This document shows, one piece after another, positions 7,945 to 17,482 of a stretch of DNA of 64,000 nt. Position numbers and translations under genes: made by a program. This stretch comes from Bacteroidales bacterium. GTDB lineage: Bacteria > Bacteroidota > Bacteroidia > Bacteroidales > UBA10428. The notes beneath the pieces were generated by a model. It was not told the origin of the DNA. It saw nothing but the letters and a program-made list of their open reading frames with translations, and searched no databases. Where the stretch lies: positions 1 through 64,000 of the forward strand of contig JAFGSZ010000068.1 in the NCBI GenBank assembly GCA_016934395.1, in the 5' to 3' direction. How positions within the stretch are numbered: position 1 is the first letter of the stretch; each line of letters opens with the position of its first letter.

Positions 7945-10900
7945 ATGAAGCGGTTTTTTATTCGGTTTTCAGTATTTCTGGTTGGTTTAATAGTGATCAG
8001 TTCATTTTTTCAGTTTGCTACAGAAAAAAGTATAGCTCGTCACGAGGCCACGTTAAGAAAAAAAATAGTTGATCCTCCCTTTATCGGTCCACCGTCGGCC
8101 TGGGTGGATTCCGTTTTTAATACCCTTTCCCTTTCCGATCAAATTGCCCAGTTCATGATGGTGGCGGCCTATTCCAACAGGGGACCGGAACATAAAGCTT
8201 ACATTTCGGGATTAATAAAAAAATACAAGATCGGCGGTCTTATCTTTTTCCAGGGATCGCCCTATAACCAGGCTTTGCTAACCAATAGCTTTCAACAGGT
8301 TTCTGAAGTTCCGTTAATGATTGCCATGGATGCGGAATGGGGACTGGCCATGCGCCTCGACAGCACCATAAATTATCCCAGGCAAATGATGCTGGGGGCC
8401 ATTCAGGATGAAAAACTAATTTATACTATGGGCGAACAGCTTGCAGAGCAAATGCGCCTGCTGGGCGTTCATATTAATTTTGCCCCCGTAGTGGATGTAA
8501 ACAACAATCCCGATAACCCGGTAATTGGCAGCCGCTCGTTTGGTGAGGAATACGCCAATGTGGCCCGCAAGGGATTATGGTATATGAAAGGTTTGCAGGA
8601 CCATAAAGTTATAGCCGTAGCCAAACATTTTCCCGGGCACGGGGATACCGATACCGATTCGCACCTGGCATTGCCGGTAATTTCGCATGAACGTTCGAGG
8701 CTGGACAGTGTGGAATTGTTTCCGTTTAAAGAATTAATATTGAGCGGGGTTTCGGGTGTAATGATTGCCCATTTAAATGTTCCGGCGCTGGATCCGGAAG
8801 AGAACCAACCTTCAACCTTATCGCCCTTGATTGTGGATTCGCTGCTGAAAAATGAAATGAAATTTAAAGGGCTTGTGTTTACCGACGCCATGAACATGGG
8901 TGGTGTTACCCGGTATTATAAACCCGGTGAGGCCAGTGTAAAAGCAGCGCTCGCCGGAAACGATATTCTGCTGATGCCCGATGATGTGGGAAAAGCTATT
9001 TCTTTAATTCAGAAAGAAGTGCGCCGCGGGAATATAAGCAAAGAAGAAATTGAAACCCGTTGTAAAAAAGTGCTGGCTGCCAAATACTGGCTTGAGCTGG
9101 ATAAAAATACTATGGTTCAAACAGACAGCCTGACTTATAAATTGAATGTACCCAAATACGAAATTCTGAATCGAAAACTTACAGAATCGGCTATTACCGT
9201 AATTGAAAGTAAAAATGAACTGATTCCCCTGCAACGACTCGATACATTAAAAATTGCAGCTGTTGCCATAGGGTCGGATAAACCCACGCTGTTTCAGGAA
9301 ACCCTGAATATGTACCTTGAATCGGATCTGTTTAGTATAAATAAATCGGCTGCACCGGAACAATTTACCGAACTGCTGAGCCAGCTTAAAGCGTATAACC
9401 TGGTAATTGTTGGTCTCCATAACACAGACATGAGGGCTTCCCGGAATTTTGGAATTACACCCTTGTCGGTTCAGTTTATCGACAGCCTGATTTTACAGAA
9501 CAAGGTGCTGCTTGATGTTTTTGCCAGTCCTTATGCCCTGGCCACATTCAGCAATCTGAAAAGTACCGAAGGTTTAATGGTTTCTTACGAAGATAATGAA
9601 AACAGCCAGAGCCTGTCAGCCCAGATTATATTCGGCGCTATCGGGGCTTCTGCCAGGCTTCCGGTAAGTATTGGCAATAGTTATCGCGCAGGGGAGGGCA
9701 TAAATACTTTTGGTGGCTTACGGTTAAAATATTCCATACCCGAAGAAGCTGGTTTTGACAGGAATATCCTGGATAAAATCGATTCTATTGCACAATACGC
9801 CATTGATCATCATGCTACTCCGGGTTGCCAGGTGTTGGTAGCCAGAGACGGCATTGTGGTATTTCAGAAGTCATACGGACAATTTACCTATTCAAAAAAG
9901 AGGCCCGAAGTTAAAAACACTGACATTTACGATCTGGCTTCGCTGACTAAAATTGCAGCCACCATGCCGGTAATTATGCACCTGGAAGAAGAGGGTGATC
10001 TGAAACTTAATGATAAATTATCGGAATATCTTCCGTATCTGGATACTACCAATAAAAAAGATATTTCCATTAAGGATATATTGCTGCACCAGGCAGGGCT
10101 TAAATCATGGATTCCCTTTTATGTTACCACACTGGAACCCTTGTATCCTTCACAGGATTACTCCCATTCACGATATTCTGCATCCTATCCGATTAAAATG
10201 GGAAGAGGATATTATGTAAACAAACATTTAAAATATAAAGACGGGTACTTTTCTGATACACCTTCAGAAGAGTATTCTGTTCAGGTGGCAGACCGTTTAT
10301 TTATGAATAAAAACCTGATCGATTCCATATACACCCAGATTGCCATTTCTGAAGTCAGCGACACACAGGAATACAAATACAGCGACCTCGGATTTTATCT
10401 CCTTCAGCAGGTTATTGAAAAATTAACCCGTACCAGCCTGAATAATTTTGTGGATTCCTTTTTATATAAACCCCTTGGCGCTTCCACACTGGGATATCTG
10501 CCGCTTCAACGATTTGATAAAACGCGCATTGCACCTACAGAAAACGACCTGGTATTCAGAAAACAAATAGTTCACGGATATGTGCACGATCCGGGAGCTG
10601 CCATGTTGGGCGGGGTTGCCGGACATGCAGGATTATTTTCCGATGCCAACGACCTGGCAAAACTCATGCAGATGTATCTGAACCGGGGTGAATATGGCGG
10701 ACAAAAATTTTATAAAGGTTCTACCATTAATTCATTCACAAAAAAGTGTCCAGAATGTAACAACGGTAACCGCAGGGGAATGGGCTTTGACAAACCGCAA
10801 CCCGATTCAACAAAGTCCGGCCCGACTATTTTTAATATTTCCCCGGAAAGCTACGGGCATACCGGTTTTACCGGAACCATGGCCTGGGTTGATCCTGAAG

Positions 10901-11025
10901 AAAATATCGTATATATATTCTTATCTAACCGGGTGTATCCCGATGCCGTGGAGAATACCCTTGTGGGATTAAATACACGCACTGCCATTCAGCAGGTAAT
11001 TTATGATGCATTAAAGCAGGATTAA
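7945..11025 (+). CDS. GH3 beta-N-acetylglucosaminidase (NagZ-like) fused to serine beta-lactamase-family hydrolase
   Basis: 1026 aa; KHFPGHGDTDTDSH (NagZ motif) in the N-terminal half; DLASLTKIA (SxxK), YSDLGF and HTGFTG in the C-terminal half. Confidence 0.92.
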   Translation: MKRFFIRFSVFLVGLIVISSFFQFATEKSIARHEATLRKKIVDPPFIGPPSAWVDSVFNTLSLSDQIAQFMMVAAYSNRGPEHKAYISGLIKKYKIGGLIFFQGSPYNQALLTNSFQQVSEVPLMIAMDAEWGLAMRLDSTINYPRQMMLGAIQDEKLIYTMGEQLAEQMRLLGVHINFAPVVDVNNNPDNPVIGSRSFGEEYANVARKGLWYMKGLQDHKVIAVAKHFPGHGDTDTDSHLALPVISHERSRLDSVELFPFKELILSGVSGVMIAHLNVPALDPEENQPSTLSPLIVDSLLKNEMKFKGLVFTDAMNMGGVTRYYKPGEASVKAALAGNDILLMPDDVGKAISLIQKEVRRGNISKEEIETRCKKVLAAKYWLELDKNTMVQTDSLTYKLNVPKYEILNRKLTESAITVIESKNELIPLQRLDTLKIAAVAIGSDKPTLFQETLNMYLESDLFSINKSAAPEQFTELLSQLKAYNLVIVGLHNTDMRASRNFGITPLSVQFIDSLILQNKVLLDVFASPYALATFSNLKSTEGLMVSYEDNENSQSLSAQIIFGAIGASARLPVSIGNSYRAGEGINTFGGLRLKYSIPEEAGFDRNILDKIDSIAQYAIDHHATPGCQVLVARDGIVVFQKSYGQFTYSKKRPEVKNTDIYDLASLTKIAATMPVIMHLEEEGDLKLNDKLSEYLPYLDTTNKKDISIKDILLHQAGLKSWIPFYVTTLEPLYPSQDYSHSRYSASYPIKMGRGYYVNKHLKYKDGYFSDTPSEEYSVQVADRLFMNKNLIDSIYTQIAISEVSDTQEYKYSDLGFYLLQQVIEKLTRTSLNNFVDSFLYKPLGASTLGYLPLQRFDKTRIAPTENDLVFRKQIVHGYVHDPGAAMLGGVAGHAGLFSDANDLAKLMQMYLNRGEYGGQKFYKGSTINSFTKKCPECNNGNRRGMGFDKPQPDSTKSGPTIFNISPESYGHTGFTGTMAWVDPEENIVYIFLSNRVYPDAVENTLVGLNTRTAIQQVIYDALKQD

Positions 11026-11228: not shown

Positions 11229-13160
11229 CTACTGTTTCAAAAGTTTTGCCGTATGTAACATTTTTTTATCATCGAGTATGATAATATACAACCCTGCAGG
11301 AAAGTCCGAGATATCAAGCGTACAACGATATCCGCAGTGTTTAATGGTTTCAAGTATTCGTCCGTACTGGTCTACAAATAAAATGTTATAATTCTCATCT
11401 TTGTTATCAAAAAGCAGGGTAACCTCGTTTTGTGCAGGATTGGGAAAAAGCGTAAACACATTCCCGGAAAGAATATCAGAAACGTTTAATACCGATTCAA
11501 TTTCGGCAAGTATCCAGTGATGGGGATCGATGGTAATCTTTTGTATTGTTTCGGGGAAATAGATCTGGAATTCCTGGAAGTTGGTGTTTTGCCGGAGCCT
11601 GATGATGGTATCGGAATTTTGAAGCCGCAACTTATAATCGATTAATATATCGAATACCGGAGTTTTATCGGGGGCAGAACTGTGTTGCACCAGTCCGATA
11701 TACAGGCTGTCATTATTTTGTTTCCAGTTAATGTTTAATACCGGATACCCTTCACCAAAATACCACTGGTTAAAAAAGGCAGTAAAGTCCCTTGATATTT
11801 TCTGTTCTGCAAAATTTTTAAAATCCAGTCCGGAAGCATTACTTCCTGCAAAGTCTGATTGAAAATCCTGAAGCATGGAAAAAAACAGGGAATCATTGTC
11901 CACTTCCTGACGCAGCATATGTATAATGGCCGCGCCCTTTTTGTAGGTCAGCCTGTAGTCAAATACCCTGCTGTCGGACTGTGTTTCCTCTTCCGGTATA
12001 TATACACTTCCACCGGAACTTGATTTAATCAGATTAAAGGCCTGAAGGATCCACTGATCGGCATCCTGCTGCGATTTAAGATACTGATTGGCCAGGTATT
12101 CGCCATAACTTGCAAAACCCTCATTAATCCAGATATCCTGCCATGTACTGCAGGTTACATGATCGCCGAACCATTGGTGGGTTAGTTCGTGGGCTACCAG
12201 TATAAAATCAAAATTACCCAGGGTTGTCATGGTCTGATGTTCCATTCCTCCGCCAAGGGGAGTAATACAATGACCGTATTTTTCATTTCTGAAAGGGTAG
12301 GGGCCAAACAGGTTGCTGTACAGCTCAATCATTTGACCGGTTGCCATAATATTGCTCTGGTTTTGTTCCAGAAAGGCCGGATCATTATAAATATAGTTCT
12401 GGATCAGTATGGAATCAGTCGTATTGTCCGGTTTTGCATAAAAGCTGAAATCCATATAATCACACACTGTAAAAGAGATCAGGTAATAGGCAATAGGGTA
12501 GCGCGATTTCCATTCGTGGCGGACTTTCCCGTTACCCAGGTTCACTGTTTTGGTAAGCAGGCCGTTTGATCCGGCTTTCCTGTTTTCATCTGTGGTTAAA
12601 TATACATAAACAGAATCAGCTTTGTCGGTAAGCGACTGTTTACACGGAAACCAGTTTTTGGCAGAAAGCGGTTCGGATAATGTCCAGGTAACATTTTTGT
12701 CCCAGTTGGATACATATGAATTGCGAATCCCGGATATCCATTCTCCTTCAAGTCCATAACCCTTATAATAAATTGTGATGCCGGCCTGCTGATTTATTTC
12801 TAATGGATTTAAAAGAAAAACTTTTATTTCATCCTGAACATGAGTGAACGATGTAACAAATCCATCAACAACTATTGAATCGATGGAAAGATCGTTTACC
12901 AGATCAAAAACCAGTGTGTCTAAATCGTTTAAAAGTGATTCTATTTTTATGGTAACAGAACCGTTAAGATATATTGAAGTATCACTTACATCGAGGTTTA
13001 AGAAATAAAATTTTACATCGTAATTATCCATTACAGGATTGTAAGAAACATTTGTTTGAGAATTTATAAAACTCTCCGAACATTTAATAGTCTGAGTTTG
13101 TGCAAAGGATATAACAATCCATAAAAGCAATCCTGAAAATAAAATTCTCCTGTGCGGCAT
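11229..13160 (-). CDS. M1-family zinc metallopeptidase with T9SS type A sorting domain
   Basis: 643 aa; GGMEHQTMTTLG, HELTHQWFGDHVTCSTWQDIWINEGFASYGEY; C-terminus LFPNPAQNEVTLLF...GLYIIILDDKKMLHTAKLLKQ. Confidence 0.92.
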   Translation of the reverse strand: MPHRRILFSGLLLWIVISFAQTQTIKCSESFINSQTNVSYNPVMDNYDVKFYFLNLDVSDTSIYLNGSVTIKIESLLNDLDTLVFDLVNDLSIDSIVVDGFVTSFTHVQDEIKVFLLNPLEINQQAGITIYYKGYGLEGEWISGIRNSYVSNWDKNVTWTLSEPLSAKNWFPCKQSLTDKADSVYVYLTTDENRKAGSNGLLTKTVNLGNGKVRHEWKSRYPIAYYLISFTVCDYMDFSFYAKPDNTTDSILIQNYIYNDPAFLEQNQSNIMATGQMIELYSNLFGPYPFRNEKYGHCITPLGGGMEHQTMTTLGNFDFILVAHELTHQWFGDHVTCSTWQDIWINEGFASYGEYLANQYLKSQQDADQWILQAFNLIKSSSGGSVYIPEEETQSDSRVFDYRLTYKKGAAIIHMLRQEVDNDSLFFSMLQDFQSDFAGSNASGLDFKNFAEQKISRDFTAFFNQWYFGEGYPVLNINWKQNNDSLYIGLVQHSSAPDKTPVFDILIDYKLRLQNSDTIIRLRQNTNFQEFQIYFPETIQKITIDPHHWILAEIESVLNVSDILSGNVFTLFPNPAQNEVTLLFDNKDENYNILFVDQYGRILETIKHCGYRCTLDISDFPAGLYIIILDDKKMLHTAKLLKQ

Positions 13161-13196
13161 TGTTCAAGAAATAAAATATTATATATACCTGTCAGA

Positions 13197-13204
13197 CAAA
13201 AGTA
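13197..13204 (-). promoter_or_regulatory. Candidate -7 box (TACTTTTG on minus strand) for the M1 peptidase gene
   Basis: CAAAAGTA on the plus strand, 37 bp upstream of the start codon. Confidence 0.45.
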
Positions 13205-13360
13205 TTTTAAAAAGCCTGATCTGTAAAAGTAAATATAAAAGTTTGGTATTATAACAGACAAAATAAAATATTCTTATTGGCACCAATTGATTTGGACAAA
13301 AGTTAATCGATAATTCGCGGGAATTTTGTTTTAACCGGAAGGACATTGAATAAAAACTCA

Positions 13361-14185
13361 AAAAAAAATCCCGACGTTTCCGCCGGGATCAAAACACCTA
13401 AAACTAATTAAACCCTATCAAACAAAATTTACTTTTCTTCCAGACTTTTTATATTTTGTTATTACTTCAATTTCTTTATTAATTAAACGGATCAGCATGC
13501 ATTGGGTTCAAAATTTTTCAGTGATAAATATTACCCGTTTAAATGTTATTCCTCACCTGTTTTTTTTAAGATAAAAAAGATCCCGACGTTTACCGCCGGG
13601 AACCAAAACACCTAAAACTAATTAAACCCTATCAAACAAAATTTACTTTTCTTCCAGACTTTTATATTTACGTTATTACTTTAATTTCTTTAATGGTTAA
13701 ACGGATGAGATATTTACCGGGTTTAGAATTTAGCAGTGATACATCTTACCCTTTTAAATGTTATTCCTCACCTGCGTTTTTCATAATAAAAAAATCCCGA
13801 CGCCTCCGCCGGGATTAAAACACCTAAAACTAATTAAACCCTATCAAATGAAAAAATTTAAACCACTTCCCCGTAGTTGGTTATTTAATAAGTTATTAAT
13901 ACCGGATTAAAATTACAACATAAAGAAGTTGTTACCAATACTTTACAGGTGATATACATTATCATTAAAAATGATATTAATTACCGGAAAACCAAGGATA
14001 TCAATTTTACTTTTTACGCATAACCGCGAAATTTATATTACCCCTAAATGCGCATTATTGAAGTGTCAGGCGGTGGAAATCAATTATAAATTCTGATCCG
14101 TTTAATATAATAAGGATAATAAAAAAGAAAGCCCCGACAAAAGCCGGGGCTAAACACCTAAAACTAATTAAACCCTATCAAACGA
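13361..14185 (-). repeat. Array of four minus-strand units: conserved box TTTGATAGGGTTTAATTAGTTTTAGGTG + intrinsic terminator
   Basis: Hairpins at 13368-13389, 13579-13602, 13794-13815 and 14130-14151, each with a T-tract on the minus strand, and each preceded on that strand by the near-identical box (plus-strand acacctaaaactaattaaaccctatcaaa). Confidence 0.85.
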
Positions 14186-14506
14186 AAAAAAGTTTATAAA
14201 ACTTAAATTCTTTATGATATTTAAAAGTACGAATTAAATACTGAATTCCTATAGAAACAATGACATTTAACAATATTTTAATTAATTTTCAGGTTAAATA
14301 TCTTTATATATTTTTCAAATATTGGAAAAATAATTTAGTCTCCGGATGGATATATTAATTATTTATGAACAATTTTAAGTAAAAAGTATCGTAATTAAAC
14401 TGGCATTAATTTTTATTGTTTATTTAAATAATAAAAATGCAGAATTAAAGTTTGCAGTAAATTACTGTTATAAGAGATATAACAAATTAATATTCAGGCA
14501 ACTGAA

Positions 14507-17482
14507 ATGAAAAACCCTGGCATCTTTATAGATCTTATCTCCATATTCTACAGCGCTTTTGATGAAATTAAATTAAATCAAAAGACTTTGATGGAATATA
14601 TAAACTTAAATTTTGAAACTCAGCTTGATTTTGAAAATCTGAAACAAAGTATTGAAAAAAATAACAGTTACCGGCAAATTGGGAAGAACACAGATACTAT
14701 ACTTTCGGAAATAGAAGTGTATTGTAAAACACTCAATCTTTCAATTAGCGAGCGGGTATACAACTTTTTTTATATTATTGATTATCTTTTTATCAGCAGT
14801 AATTTAACCAATGAATTATATAGAGTACTTGAAACTCTGGGCAGCAGATTTTTTGTTGAACAGGATATATTTTCTCATGTTTTTGAATTTATAACAGCCA
14901 AAAATCCCGACGATCTTAACCGGAAGCCTTATCTGATAATTAAGTCCGCTTCAGAAAGTGATTCGGATCTTGAAGGCAGCTGGATAGAAGACAACATACC
15001 CCAGGAGGAAAAATTGACCAGGAATATTGAACTGGCGGGTTTTAACGGAACGATTGTTACTATGTATCTTCCGGCAACACGTAATTTTTACCTCAGAATT
15101 TTTAACACAAAAATTTCAATCCCAAAATTTGTGCAGCTTGAACCTGGTGGGTTGGTTTATATTGATAATAATAGTAATATACAATATCAATGGCTTAAAA
15201 AATATTATCTGAGAAACCAGAATATTTCCAGGATCAACATACTGGCCGAAAATGTATCTTATCAATACGCAAATTCTGATAAAGGAATTAAATCCTTCAG
15301 TTTTTTCGAAGAATCCGGTCAGCTTATTGGCATTATTGGTAAAGAAGGCGTTGGTAAATCCACATTGCTTGAATTATTTTCAGGAACTTTAAAATCAACA
15401 ACTGGAAATATATTTATTAATGGATATAATCTGGCAAGCAGCAGTTATCTGTTAAAAAATATAATTGGATACGTAAGCGAAAAAGACCTTTTGTTCGATG
15501 AACATACCGTATATGAGAACCTTTATTTATCCAGCAAGCTTTATTTAGGCAAGCTTTCAAAGGCTGAAAAACAACAACATATTCAAACAATTTTATATGA
15601 TCTTGATATTGCCGATATAAAAGAGGTGAAGGTGGGTAAGATTTCGGATAAAAACCTTCAACCTGGTCAGCGCCGTTTGGTAAATATCGCAGTGGAATTG
15701 TTGCGCAATCCTGAAATATTACTTATAGATAATGCAATTGAAGGATTAAATATGGCAGATGCTTCAAAAATTATCAGGGCATTATATCATTTAACCTTTA
15801 AAGGAAAATTAATAATAACCAGCATTAGCCAAACCAGTGAGGAAGCATTTAAATTATTCGATAAAATTTTTATAATTGACGACGGGGGATATCCTATATA
15901 TTATGGTAACACGGCTGAAGCGTTAGATTATTTTCAATCTAAAATTTTTCCGCAAAATTTGCGTAAACAGTCATCTCAAATTCCACAAAAAATTAATGCC
16001 GAGGAGATTATTGATGCCATAAATATAAAGAGCATTCAAACCGGGGATATCAATATTACGGAACGCAGAAAATCTCCTGAAGAATGGTATAAGGAGTATA
16101 ATAAAGTATCTTCAATTCCAAAAAAAACACCGCAACAACGTGTATTGCCCACAGGTATTTATCAACTGCCAAGTCTTGACAAACAATTTGCTGTATATAA
16201 TATCCGGAATTTTAAAACCAAGTATACTAATTACAAACGGCTTTTAATTACTTTTTCAGCAGGACCCATAATTGCATCAATAATTGCAGGGATTTGCAGG
16301 TTTCTGATGGGCACAGGTTACAGTTTTTCAGAAAATAGTAACCTGCCTTTATACATTTTCCTGTCAACCCTGGTAATGTTATTTTTCGGATTGTATGTTA
16401 GTGCAAACGAGATATGGAAAGAAAGGGACATATTACATAAAGAAGAATATCTTAATTACAGCAGGTTTAGTTATATCAATTCCAAGATTATTTTTTTGTT
16501 TTCAATTGCTGCCATTCATAGTTTATTATATACCCTTGCCGGAAATTTTGTGCTTGAGATCAAACAGACATTTTTTCAATTCTGGATTGCTAATTTTTCT
16601 ATTGAAGCTTTTGGAGTAATATTAGGTCTTGTATTTTCATCAACAGTGAGAAAAATTGAGACGATATTCAGTTTTTTTATTCCGTTAGTAATTGCCTTGA
16701 ATTTTTTATTGGGGGGCGGAGCAATTAAATTTTTTGAAAAGCCCGTGAAAAACAAATTTGATATTCCGGTTATCAGTGAGTTTATACCTTCTCGCTGGGC
16801 ATACGAAGCCCTGATGGTAGCTCAGTTTTCAAATAACCCATATGAAAAGCCGGTATTTGAAATCGATAATACGATCAGCAGGTCGAATTATTACTATGAA
16901 TATTTATTGCCTTTTATTAAAACGCATTTAAACTCCGGTGTTGAAAACATGAATAATCCCGATTCATTGAATTGGAATCTAAGTATAGTCCGTAACGGAA
17001 TAAAACAAATGTCAACCTATCCTGAAGTCTTTCAATTTGAATACCTTCAACGCCTGAATAATCAGGAGTTTTCGCTTGATATTGCCCGGGAGACCTCCGA
17101 TTATCTTACATACCTTGAACTGTTTTTTTATAATTTGCATCAGGATAAATTGTTGCATAAAGAAGAAGTATTAAGTCAGTATTCGGATCAAAAAAGGATG
17201 AAGGAAAACAATTACAACAAGTCAGTTGCCGAGTTGGTGCTGGCTAACCATATTACTGATCAGTTACAGCTTATTGATACCGTGCCGGTCCGGTTGTCCG
17301 ATCCCGTTTTTCAGGAACCGGTTTCAAATTATGGCAGAGCCAGGTTTTTTACCGGCACAAAAAAATTTAACGACCAGCTTATAGCTACATACTGGTTTAA
17401 TGTTTCAATTATTTGGTTATTCTCATTTCTGATTTATATATTTCTGTTATTTGACGTTTTTAAGAAATTTAGAATGAATTAA
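14507..17482 (+). CDS. ABCG-like ABC transporter (NBD + ABC2 membrane domain) with degenerate signature, Walker B and H-loop
   Basis: 991 aa; Walker A GKEGVGKS; NLQPGQRRL in place of SGGQ; ILLIDNAIEGL in place of DEPTSGL; SISQTSEEAF in place of xIHQPSS; C-terminal transmembrane segments. Confidence 0.85.
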   Translation: MKNPGIFIDLISIFYSAFDEIKLNQKTLMEYINLNFETQLDFENLKQSIEKNNSYRQIGKNTDTILSEIEVYCKTLNLSISERVYNFFYIIDYLFISSNLTNELYRVLETLGSRFFVEQDIFSHVFEFITAKNPDDLNRKPYLIIKSASESDSDLEGSWIEDNIPQEEKLTRNIELAGFNGTIVTMYLPATRNFYLRIFNTKISIPKFVQLEPGGLVYIDNNSNIQYQWLKKYYLRNQNISRINILAENVSYQYANSDKGIKSFSFFEESGQLIGIIGKEGVGKSTLLELFSGTLKSTTGNIFINGYNLASSSYLLKNIIGYVSEKDLLFDEHTVYENLYLSSKLYLGKLSKAEKQQHIQTILYDLDIADIKEVKVGKISDKNLQPGQRRLVNIAVELLRNPEILLIDNAIEGLNMADASKIIRALYHLTFKGKLIITSISQTSEEAFKLFDKIFIIDDGGYPIYYGNTAEALDYFQSKIFPQNLRKQSSQIPQKINAEEIIDAINIKSIQTGDINITERRKSPEEWYKEYNKVSSIPKKTPQQRVLPTGIYQLPSLDKQFAVYNIRNFKTKYTNYKRLLITFSAGPIIASIIAGICRFLMGTGYSFSENSNLPLYIFLSTLVMLFFGLYVSANEIWKERDILHKEEYLNYSRFSYINSKIIFLFSIAAIHSLLYTLAGNFVLEIKQTFFQFWIANFSIEAFGVILGLVFSSTVRKIETIFSFFIPLVIALNFLLGGGAIKFFEKPVKNKFDIPVISEFIPSRWAYEALMVAQFSNNPYEKPVFEIDNTISRSNYYYEYLLPFIKTHLNSGVENMNNPDSLNWNLSIVRNGIKQMSTYPEVFQFEYLQRLNNQEFSLDIARETSDYLTYLELFFYNLHQDKLLHKEEVLSQYSDQKRMKENNYNKSVAELVLANHITDQLQLIDTVPVRLSDPVFQEPVSNYGRARFFTGTKKFNDQLIATYWFNVSIIWLFSFLIYIFLLFDVFKKFRMN

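Follow-up and report, generated by a model that had tools for sequence, protein, structure and literature searches.

The box array and its surroundings

In the window (the whole 64,000-nucleotide stretch of Bacteroidales DNA that was analysed), four identical copies of a 31-nt box, TTTGATAGGGTTTAATTAGTTTTAGGTGTTT, were identified by exact matching on the minus strand (0 expected in shuffles), lying between a gene for an M1 peptidase with a type IX sorting tail and a divergent ABC transporter gene (Table 1). The box has no copy outside this array at up to 3 mismatches in the whole 4.5-Mb genome, and on its sense strand it contains stop codons in all three frames. Directly 3' of each copy is a GC stem followed by a T-run, and a terminator scan of positions 12900-14700 found exactly the four unit terminators, where 0.8 would be expected. 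The four minus-strand box-and-terminator units of the original prediction are thus borne out, and the G-U pair noted at the same place in all four stems is as it was described. Units 1 and 2, said to be duplicates over about 211 bp, are indeed 88% identical over 111 nt and 84% over a further 75 nt, with a spacing of 214-215 bp. The box is predicted only loosely to be single-stranded by folding; for units 1 and 4 the predicted fold partly pairs it with upstream sequence. Elsewhere in the window, positions 7945-11025 of the plus strand encode a fusion of a glycoside hydrolase 3 with a serine hydrolase domain of the beta-lactamase type.

Table 1. Features of the array and its flanking genes (window coordinates)
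Feature	Position	Strand	Evidence or remark
M1 peptidase with type IX sorting tail, conserved neighbour	11229..13160	-	Pfam PF01433, PF18962
Predicted transcript, unit 1, ~113 nt	13361..13473	-	Start inferred from operator spacing; fold
Intrinsic terminator stem-loop, unit 1	13367..13390	-	Terminator scan; family covariation; T-run to ~13361
Conserved box, unit 1	13392..13422	-	Exact match
Tandem operator, unit 1: GTGAGGAATAACAT (13556-13543) + GTAATATTTATCAC (13534-13521), spacing 22	13521..13556	-	16/20
Predicted transcript, unit 2, ~117 nt	13572..13688	-	Start inferred from operator spacing; fold
Intrinsic terminator stem-loop, unit 2	13581..13601	-	Terminator scan; family covariation
Conserved box, unit 2	13606..13636	-	Exact match
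Tandem operator, unit 2: GTGAGGAATAACAT + GTAAGATGTATCAC, spacing 22	13736..13771	-	15/20
Predicted transcript, unit 3, ~116 nt	13786..13901	-	Start inferred from operator spacing; fold
Intrinsic terminator stem-loop, unit 3	13793..13816	-	Terminator scan; family covariation
Conserved box, unit 3	13818..13848	-	Exact match
-7-like element TAATTTTA, unit 3, where relatives have TAAATTTG	13908..13915	-	Fixed spacing from operator 2
Tandem operator, unit 3: GTAATTAATATCAT + ATAATGTATATCAC, spacing 22	13949..13984	-	16/20
Intrinsic terminator stem-loop, unit 4	14130..14151	-	Terminator scan; family covariation
Conserved box, unit 4	14152..14182	-	Exact match
ABC transporter (ATPase + ABC-2 membrane), divergent, conserved neighbour	14507..17482	+	Pfam PF00005, PF01061

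Conservation and covariation in relatives

Scanning public genomes for exact matches led to two Bacteroidales MAGs. Using a covariance model built from four copies and then run on 23 genomes of the same family, the element was detected in 21, nine of which carry at least two tandem copies, the tandem pairs often lying 230-470 bp apart. When 393 genomes from across the order were searched with model R2, strong matches were seen only in the family of the window genome; matches at the 1e-4 level were set aside, since they look in part like a broader FopS-like class (L053, L054, L056, L064) and in part like chance. The core of the element is GATAGGGTTTA(A)TTAGTTTTAGGTG, with the variants GGGTG or AAGATG.

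Across the family the box is near-invariant, and the stems differ from copy to copy but covary strongly. Over 27 distinct copies, 96.7% of the cells of the 9-bp stem are paired, and for each of the nine pairs there are copies in which both partners have changed. Covariation scores 0.783, where shuffling gives 0.218 +/- 0.029 (0 of 500 shuffles) and sliding no more than 0.29; the relatedness of the copies and the fitting of the alignment to the structure are caveats here, but the effect is far beyond both controls. About 20 stem cells hold G-U or U-G and 8 are unpaired, which fits the minus strand. Among five species of one genus, AAGATAGGTTTTTGTCAGATAGGGTTTATTAGTTTTGGGTGTTGG and the stem are nearly identical, and drift is seen in the segment that begins at the promoter and stops about 15-20 nt short of the box. 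The argument for a minus-strand RNA made from the four stems is upheld by this strand-specific covariation in the family copies, and the element is supported as an RNA on that strand, where alone its G-U pairs make sense.

That the box is instead a protein-binding DNA site or a dispersed repeat, with hairpins that are ordinary terminators of something else, is very improbable. In favour of this, the box does not vary as DNA, and unit 2 and unit 1 arose by a recent duplication; against it, the copies within the genome are confined to the array locus, synteny is kept across genera, covariation in the stem includes G-U pairs that suit a single strand, and a promoter and operator precede most copies at a fixed geometry. 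No match to the exact box core was found among 2.9 million viral contigs. The mobile repeat that the original prediction had named as a possible refutation did not appear, given the conserved synteny and the lack of dispersed copies.

Operators, promoters and predicted transcripts

Upstream of 35 copies there are 45 GTGAT-N4-ATCAC palindromes, against 2.8 in shuffles. A tandem operator pair scoring at least 15/20 was found in 25 of the 35 copies and in 0.06% of shuffles; the two palindromes are spaced 22-23 bp apart and are followed at a fixed offset by TAAATTTG, which occupies the position of the Bacteroidota -7 element in the relatives' copies. The new observation here is that tandem operators stand at a fixed distance from the -7 element in most copies, including window units 1-3. 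Relatives and unit 3 thus have a putative promoter of their own for the sRNA, with operator and -7 at fixed spacing. The -7 position is fair in unit 3 and weak in units 1 and 2 (TTTAATTA and GTTTAACC), and operator-pair scoring found no tandem operators upstream of unit 4; it may therefore be that some of the copies are not expressed, or are regulated in another way. A generic sigma-70 promoter scan scored below shuffles and is uninformative for Bacteroidota.

From the fixed operator spacing, the predicted transcription start lies some 48-50 nt upstream of the modelled element, which would give RNAs of about 113-117 nt for units 1-3. The original estimate of about 55 nt or longer thus holds in its second part, the longer size.

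Across the family the tandem operator was counted 39 times, and the reversed pattern 0 times. At many of these sites (L095-L124) a -7-like element follows after about 33 bp, and together they are a candidate family-wide regulon. The genes behind them include those for a SiaC protein, for a TPR protein whose tail is read as a SpoIIE-type phosphatase, and for a conserved 68-aa protein; a receiver-domain (CheY-like) operon, read by eye, is likewise linked to the operator. The 68-aa protein, MLDVKYNIKSLISSIYECQKK...KYQFSY, has no Pfam match and lies directly behind the tandem operator at L096, L097, L102, L106, L115 and L118. The GTGAT-N4-ATCAC palindrome resembles a Crp site; palindromes of the GTGA-N6-TCAC type keep a constant distance to the promoter, as expected of a Crp/Fnr regulon, and the genome encodes six Crp/Fnr-type HTH proteins. 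These would be the candidates for the regulator of the array.

Neighbouring genes and the question of a leader

The same divergent ABC transporter gene adjoins the element in 15 genomes, and the element precedes the same M1 peptidase gene in 14, with M1 downstream on the same strand. At eight loci (L021, L023, L025, L026, L028, L029, L034, L037) the M1 gene begins 6-53 nt past the terminator. Read-through may be relevant at these loci, and a leader may be a side role in those genomes. As a general role, an attenuated 5' leader, in which the units would be regulated terminators before the M1 gene, is improbable, and this part of the original prediction is not supported. The element also occurs at loci that have no M1 peptidase gene, and at least seven copies (L005, L006, L020, L022, L024, L042, L044) are followed by a convergent gene, which leaves them nothing to lead, in place of the constant same-strand position upstream of a regulated gene that a leader should show; the element is thus not generally a leader, and its RNA stands alone. 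In the window itself the M1 gene starts 204 bp away and, as had been proposed for position 13197, has its own TAnnTTTG promoter candidate, TACTTTTG at ~13204-13197, 44 nt before the ATG. Four serial terminators would also be an odd architecture for a leader, and no conserved alternative pairing that competes with the terminator was seen.

The family of short terminator-ended sRNAs that was originally proposed is supported by the conservation, the strand-specific covariation, the operator and promoter architecture and the standalone loci. There is very probably a real, conserved and previously undescribed family of sRNA genes here.

Relationship to FopS and other known RNA families

At the Rfam cut-offs the window matches none of the families, and permissive settings gave terminator-level noise only, in agreement with the initial failure to name a known RNA family for the box. 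FopS was the RNA first suspected, and a pattern search together with Rfam showed which Bacteroidales elements are FopS. The FopS model, RF04319, was positive on Bacteroides-type loci and in Bacteroides ihuae; it has no match in the window at E<=10, and 0 of the 23 family genomes reach its gathering cut-off of 56 bits. Aligned with the FopS consensus, the box does no better than shuffles (P 0.2-0.6) and does not match the R1 seed, UUUUUCAUgGUAUUAGAUUUAAGGUUAA. The model scans and the consensus alignment exclude the window box as a FopS member.

The box family is nevertheless of the FopS kind by architecture, though not by membership. FopS, the nearest kind of RNA already described, is a family of paralogous sRNAs of Bacteroides thetaiotaomicron (Rfam RF04319), with a single-stranded 5' seed and a terminator, that acts at the start codon to repress SusC mRNAs (PMC11697453). 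Like FopS, the box family comprises multicopy paralogous sRNAs of Bacteroidales with a C-poor 5' box, a variable intrinsic terminator directly after it and a TAnnTTTG-type promoter; unlike FopS, it has a longer 5' segment, conserved tandem palindromic operators and copies in tandem at one locus, where those of FopS are dispersed.

More FopS-like elements were seen beside and apart from the box units. A second module, TTGGGTTTAGTTAGATTTAGGGTTAATT, accompanies box units, either upstream or in tandem, at L032 (1741-1800), L006 (4914-4961) and L041 (upstream of 1501). It is absent from the window copies; in L032 (module 1) and L006 (unit B) it is FopS R1-like (P 0.008-0.02). The window genome also contains a separate FopS-like sRNA candidate, L094 (G000:C38:11600-11668), made up of UUUUUUCAUAGGUUAAUAGUUAGGGUUAG and a terminator, which is FopS-like by consensus alignment (P 0.008-0.02) yet below the Rfam cut-off. 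Boxes of the C-poor GGTTTAGTTAGGTTTAGTT type that have a terminator and a TTTTTCATA-like leader, and that match no Rfam family, also occur in other Bacteroidales families (L053, L054 and L064 in f72; L056, two in tandem, in f16; L050 in f23; L048 in f38).

Two further Bacteroides sRNAs invite comparison. Like the box RNAs, rteR (RF04181) has a terminal hairpin, and it reached 20-21 bits in the permissive scan; this is far under its 72-bit cut-off, with E values of 2.5-4.3, the similarity is mainly terminator, and rteR comes from conjugative transposons. GibS (RF04182) is likewise intergenic, has a conserved 5' seed without structure and adjoins one of its targets (PMC7366714). It differs in its length of ~145 nt, its two internal hairpins and its two seeds, and the Rfam scan found no match to it in the window.

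Possible targets and protein partners

Complementarity to 35 SusC starts from the family was compared with 25-40 shuffles per query, in z scores that ignore relatedness among the starts. The box alone gave z -1.7 on SusC starts, against +0.9 and +0.3 on other starts; unit 4 with its 5' part gave -3.7 on SusC, unit 3 -2.3 and unit 1 extended -0.5, so that the box RNAs overall range from -0.5 to -3.7 on SusC and from +1 to -2.3 on other starts. The FopS-like RNAs L090 and L094 reach about -8 on SusC starts and -0.7 to -4.8 on other genes, the former partly because UUUUUUCAU pairs with AUGAAAAAA. Targeting of SusC by the box is, on this predicted pairing, only a lead. Long box-complementary sites elsewhere in the genome are not above chance (2, against 5 in the reversed control). 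A predicted pairing with the start of the adjacent ABC gene in the window (-18.5 kcal/mol) was discarded, the pairing codons not being visibly common to the ABC start of L005.

The sponge RNAs CsrB and RsmZ, which carry short protein-binding words repeated in several copies, offer a comparison for how such an RNA could work. The box units lack their GGA-loop hairpins, and CsrA is absent from Bacteroides (PMC12119571). A CsrB-like protein-titrating RNA, whose tandem UAGG(G)-rich boxes would sequester, or be carried by, an RbpB-type RRM_1 protein, is rather unlikely, though several observations suit it: UAGG or UUUAGGG is repeated in the box, the upstream module and the flanks, tandem copies raise dosage, long mRNA complementarity was not found in the genome, and the genome has three RRM_1 proteins. 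RbpB itself is reported to bind a GUAGGAUA probe (PMC12119571), and it binds FopS RNAs (PMC11697453). RRM proteins are common in Bacteroidota, however, so their presence does not discriminate, and in one genus the second UAGG varies (AAGAUG, AUGAUG; L029, L030, L042, L044) while AUAGGGUUU is kept. A broader proposal, in which the UAGGG-rich box RNAs form a tunable RRM-protein sponge (a counterpart of CsrA/CsrB) and the operators a new regulon with SiaC, phosphatase-type signalling proteins and the small conserved protein, is doubtful; if true, sponge and regulon together would be a previously undescribed signal-switched sRNA system of Bacteroidota.

Proposed mechanism and significance

The array probably consists of signal-switched genes for a trans-acting sRNA that works through pairing of the box. 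A regulator would bind the pair of GTGAT-N4-ATCAC palindromes, which lie two helical turns from each other and just upstream of a Bacteroidota-type promoter, and the four tandem gene copies would then yield an sRNA of ~110 nt ended by the intrinsic terminator. The C-poor box, GAUAGGGUUUAAUUAGUUUUAGGUG, would be its functional part, pairing, as FopS does, with C- and A-containing stretches where translation of the target mRNAs starts and so lowering that translation; the leading candidate targets would be SusC-type outer-membrane proteins, and the several copies may bring a benefit of dosage. The analysis shows the element, its strand, the conserved covarying stem, the geometry of operator and promoter and the standalone loci; the transcription start, the identity of the regulator, the base-pairing mode, the targets and the copy-number benefit are what we infer.

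To our knowledge, very few sRNA families of Bacteroidota are known outside the gut Bacteroides. The one described here is conserved across genera of an environmental family, and its unusually rigid promoter architecture points to one regulator. The box, the operator, the SusC candidates and the RRM proteins provide handles on the evolution of post-transcriptional control of outer-membrane transporters in Bacteroidota.
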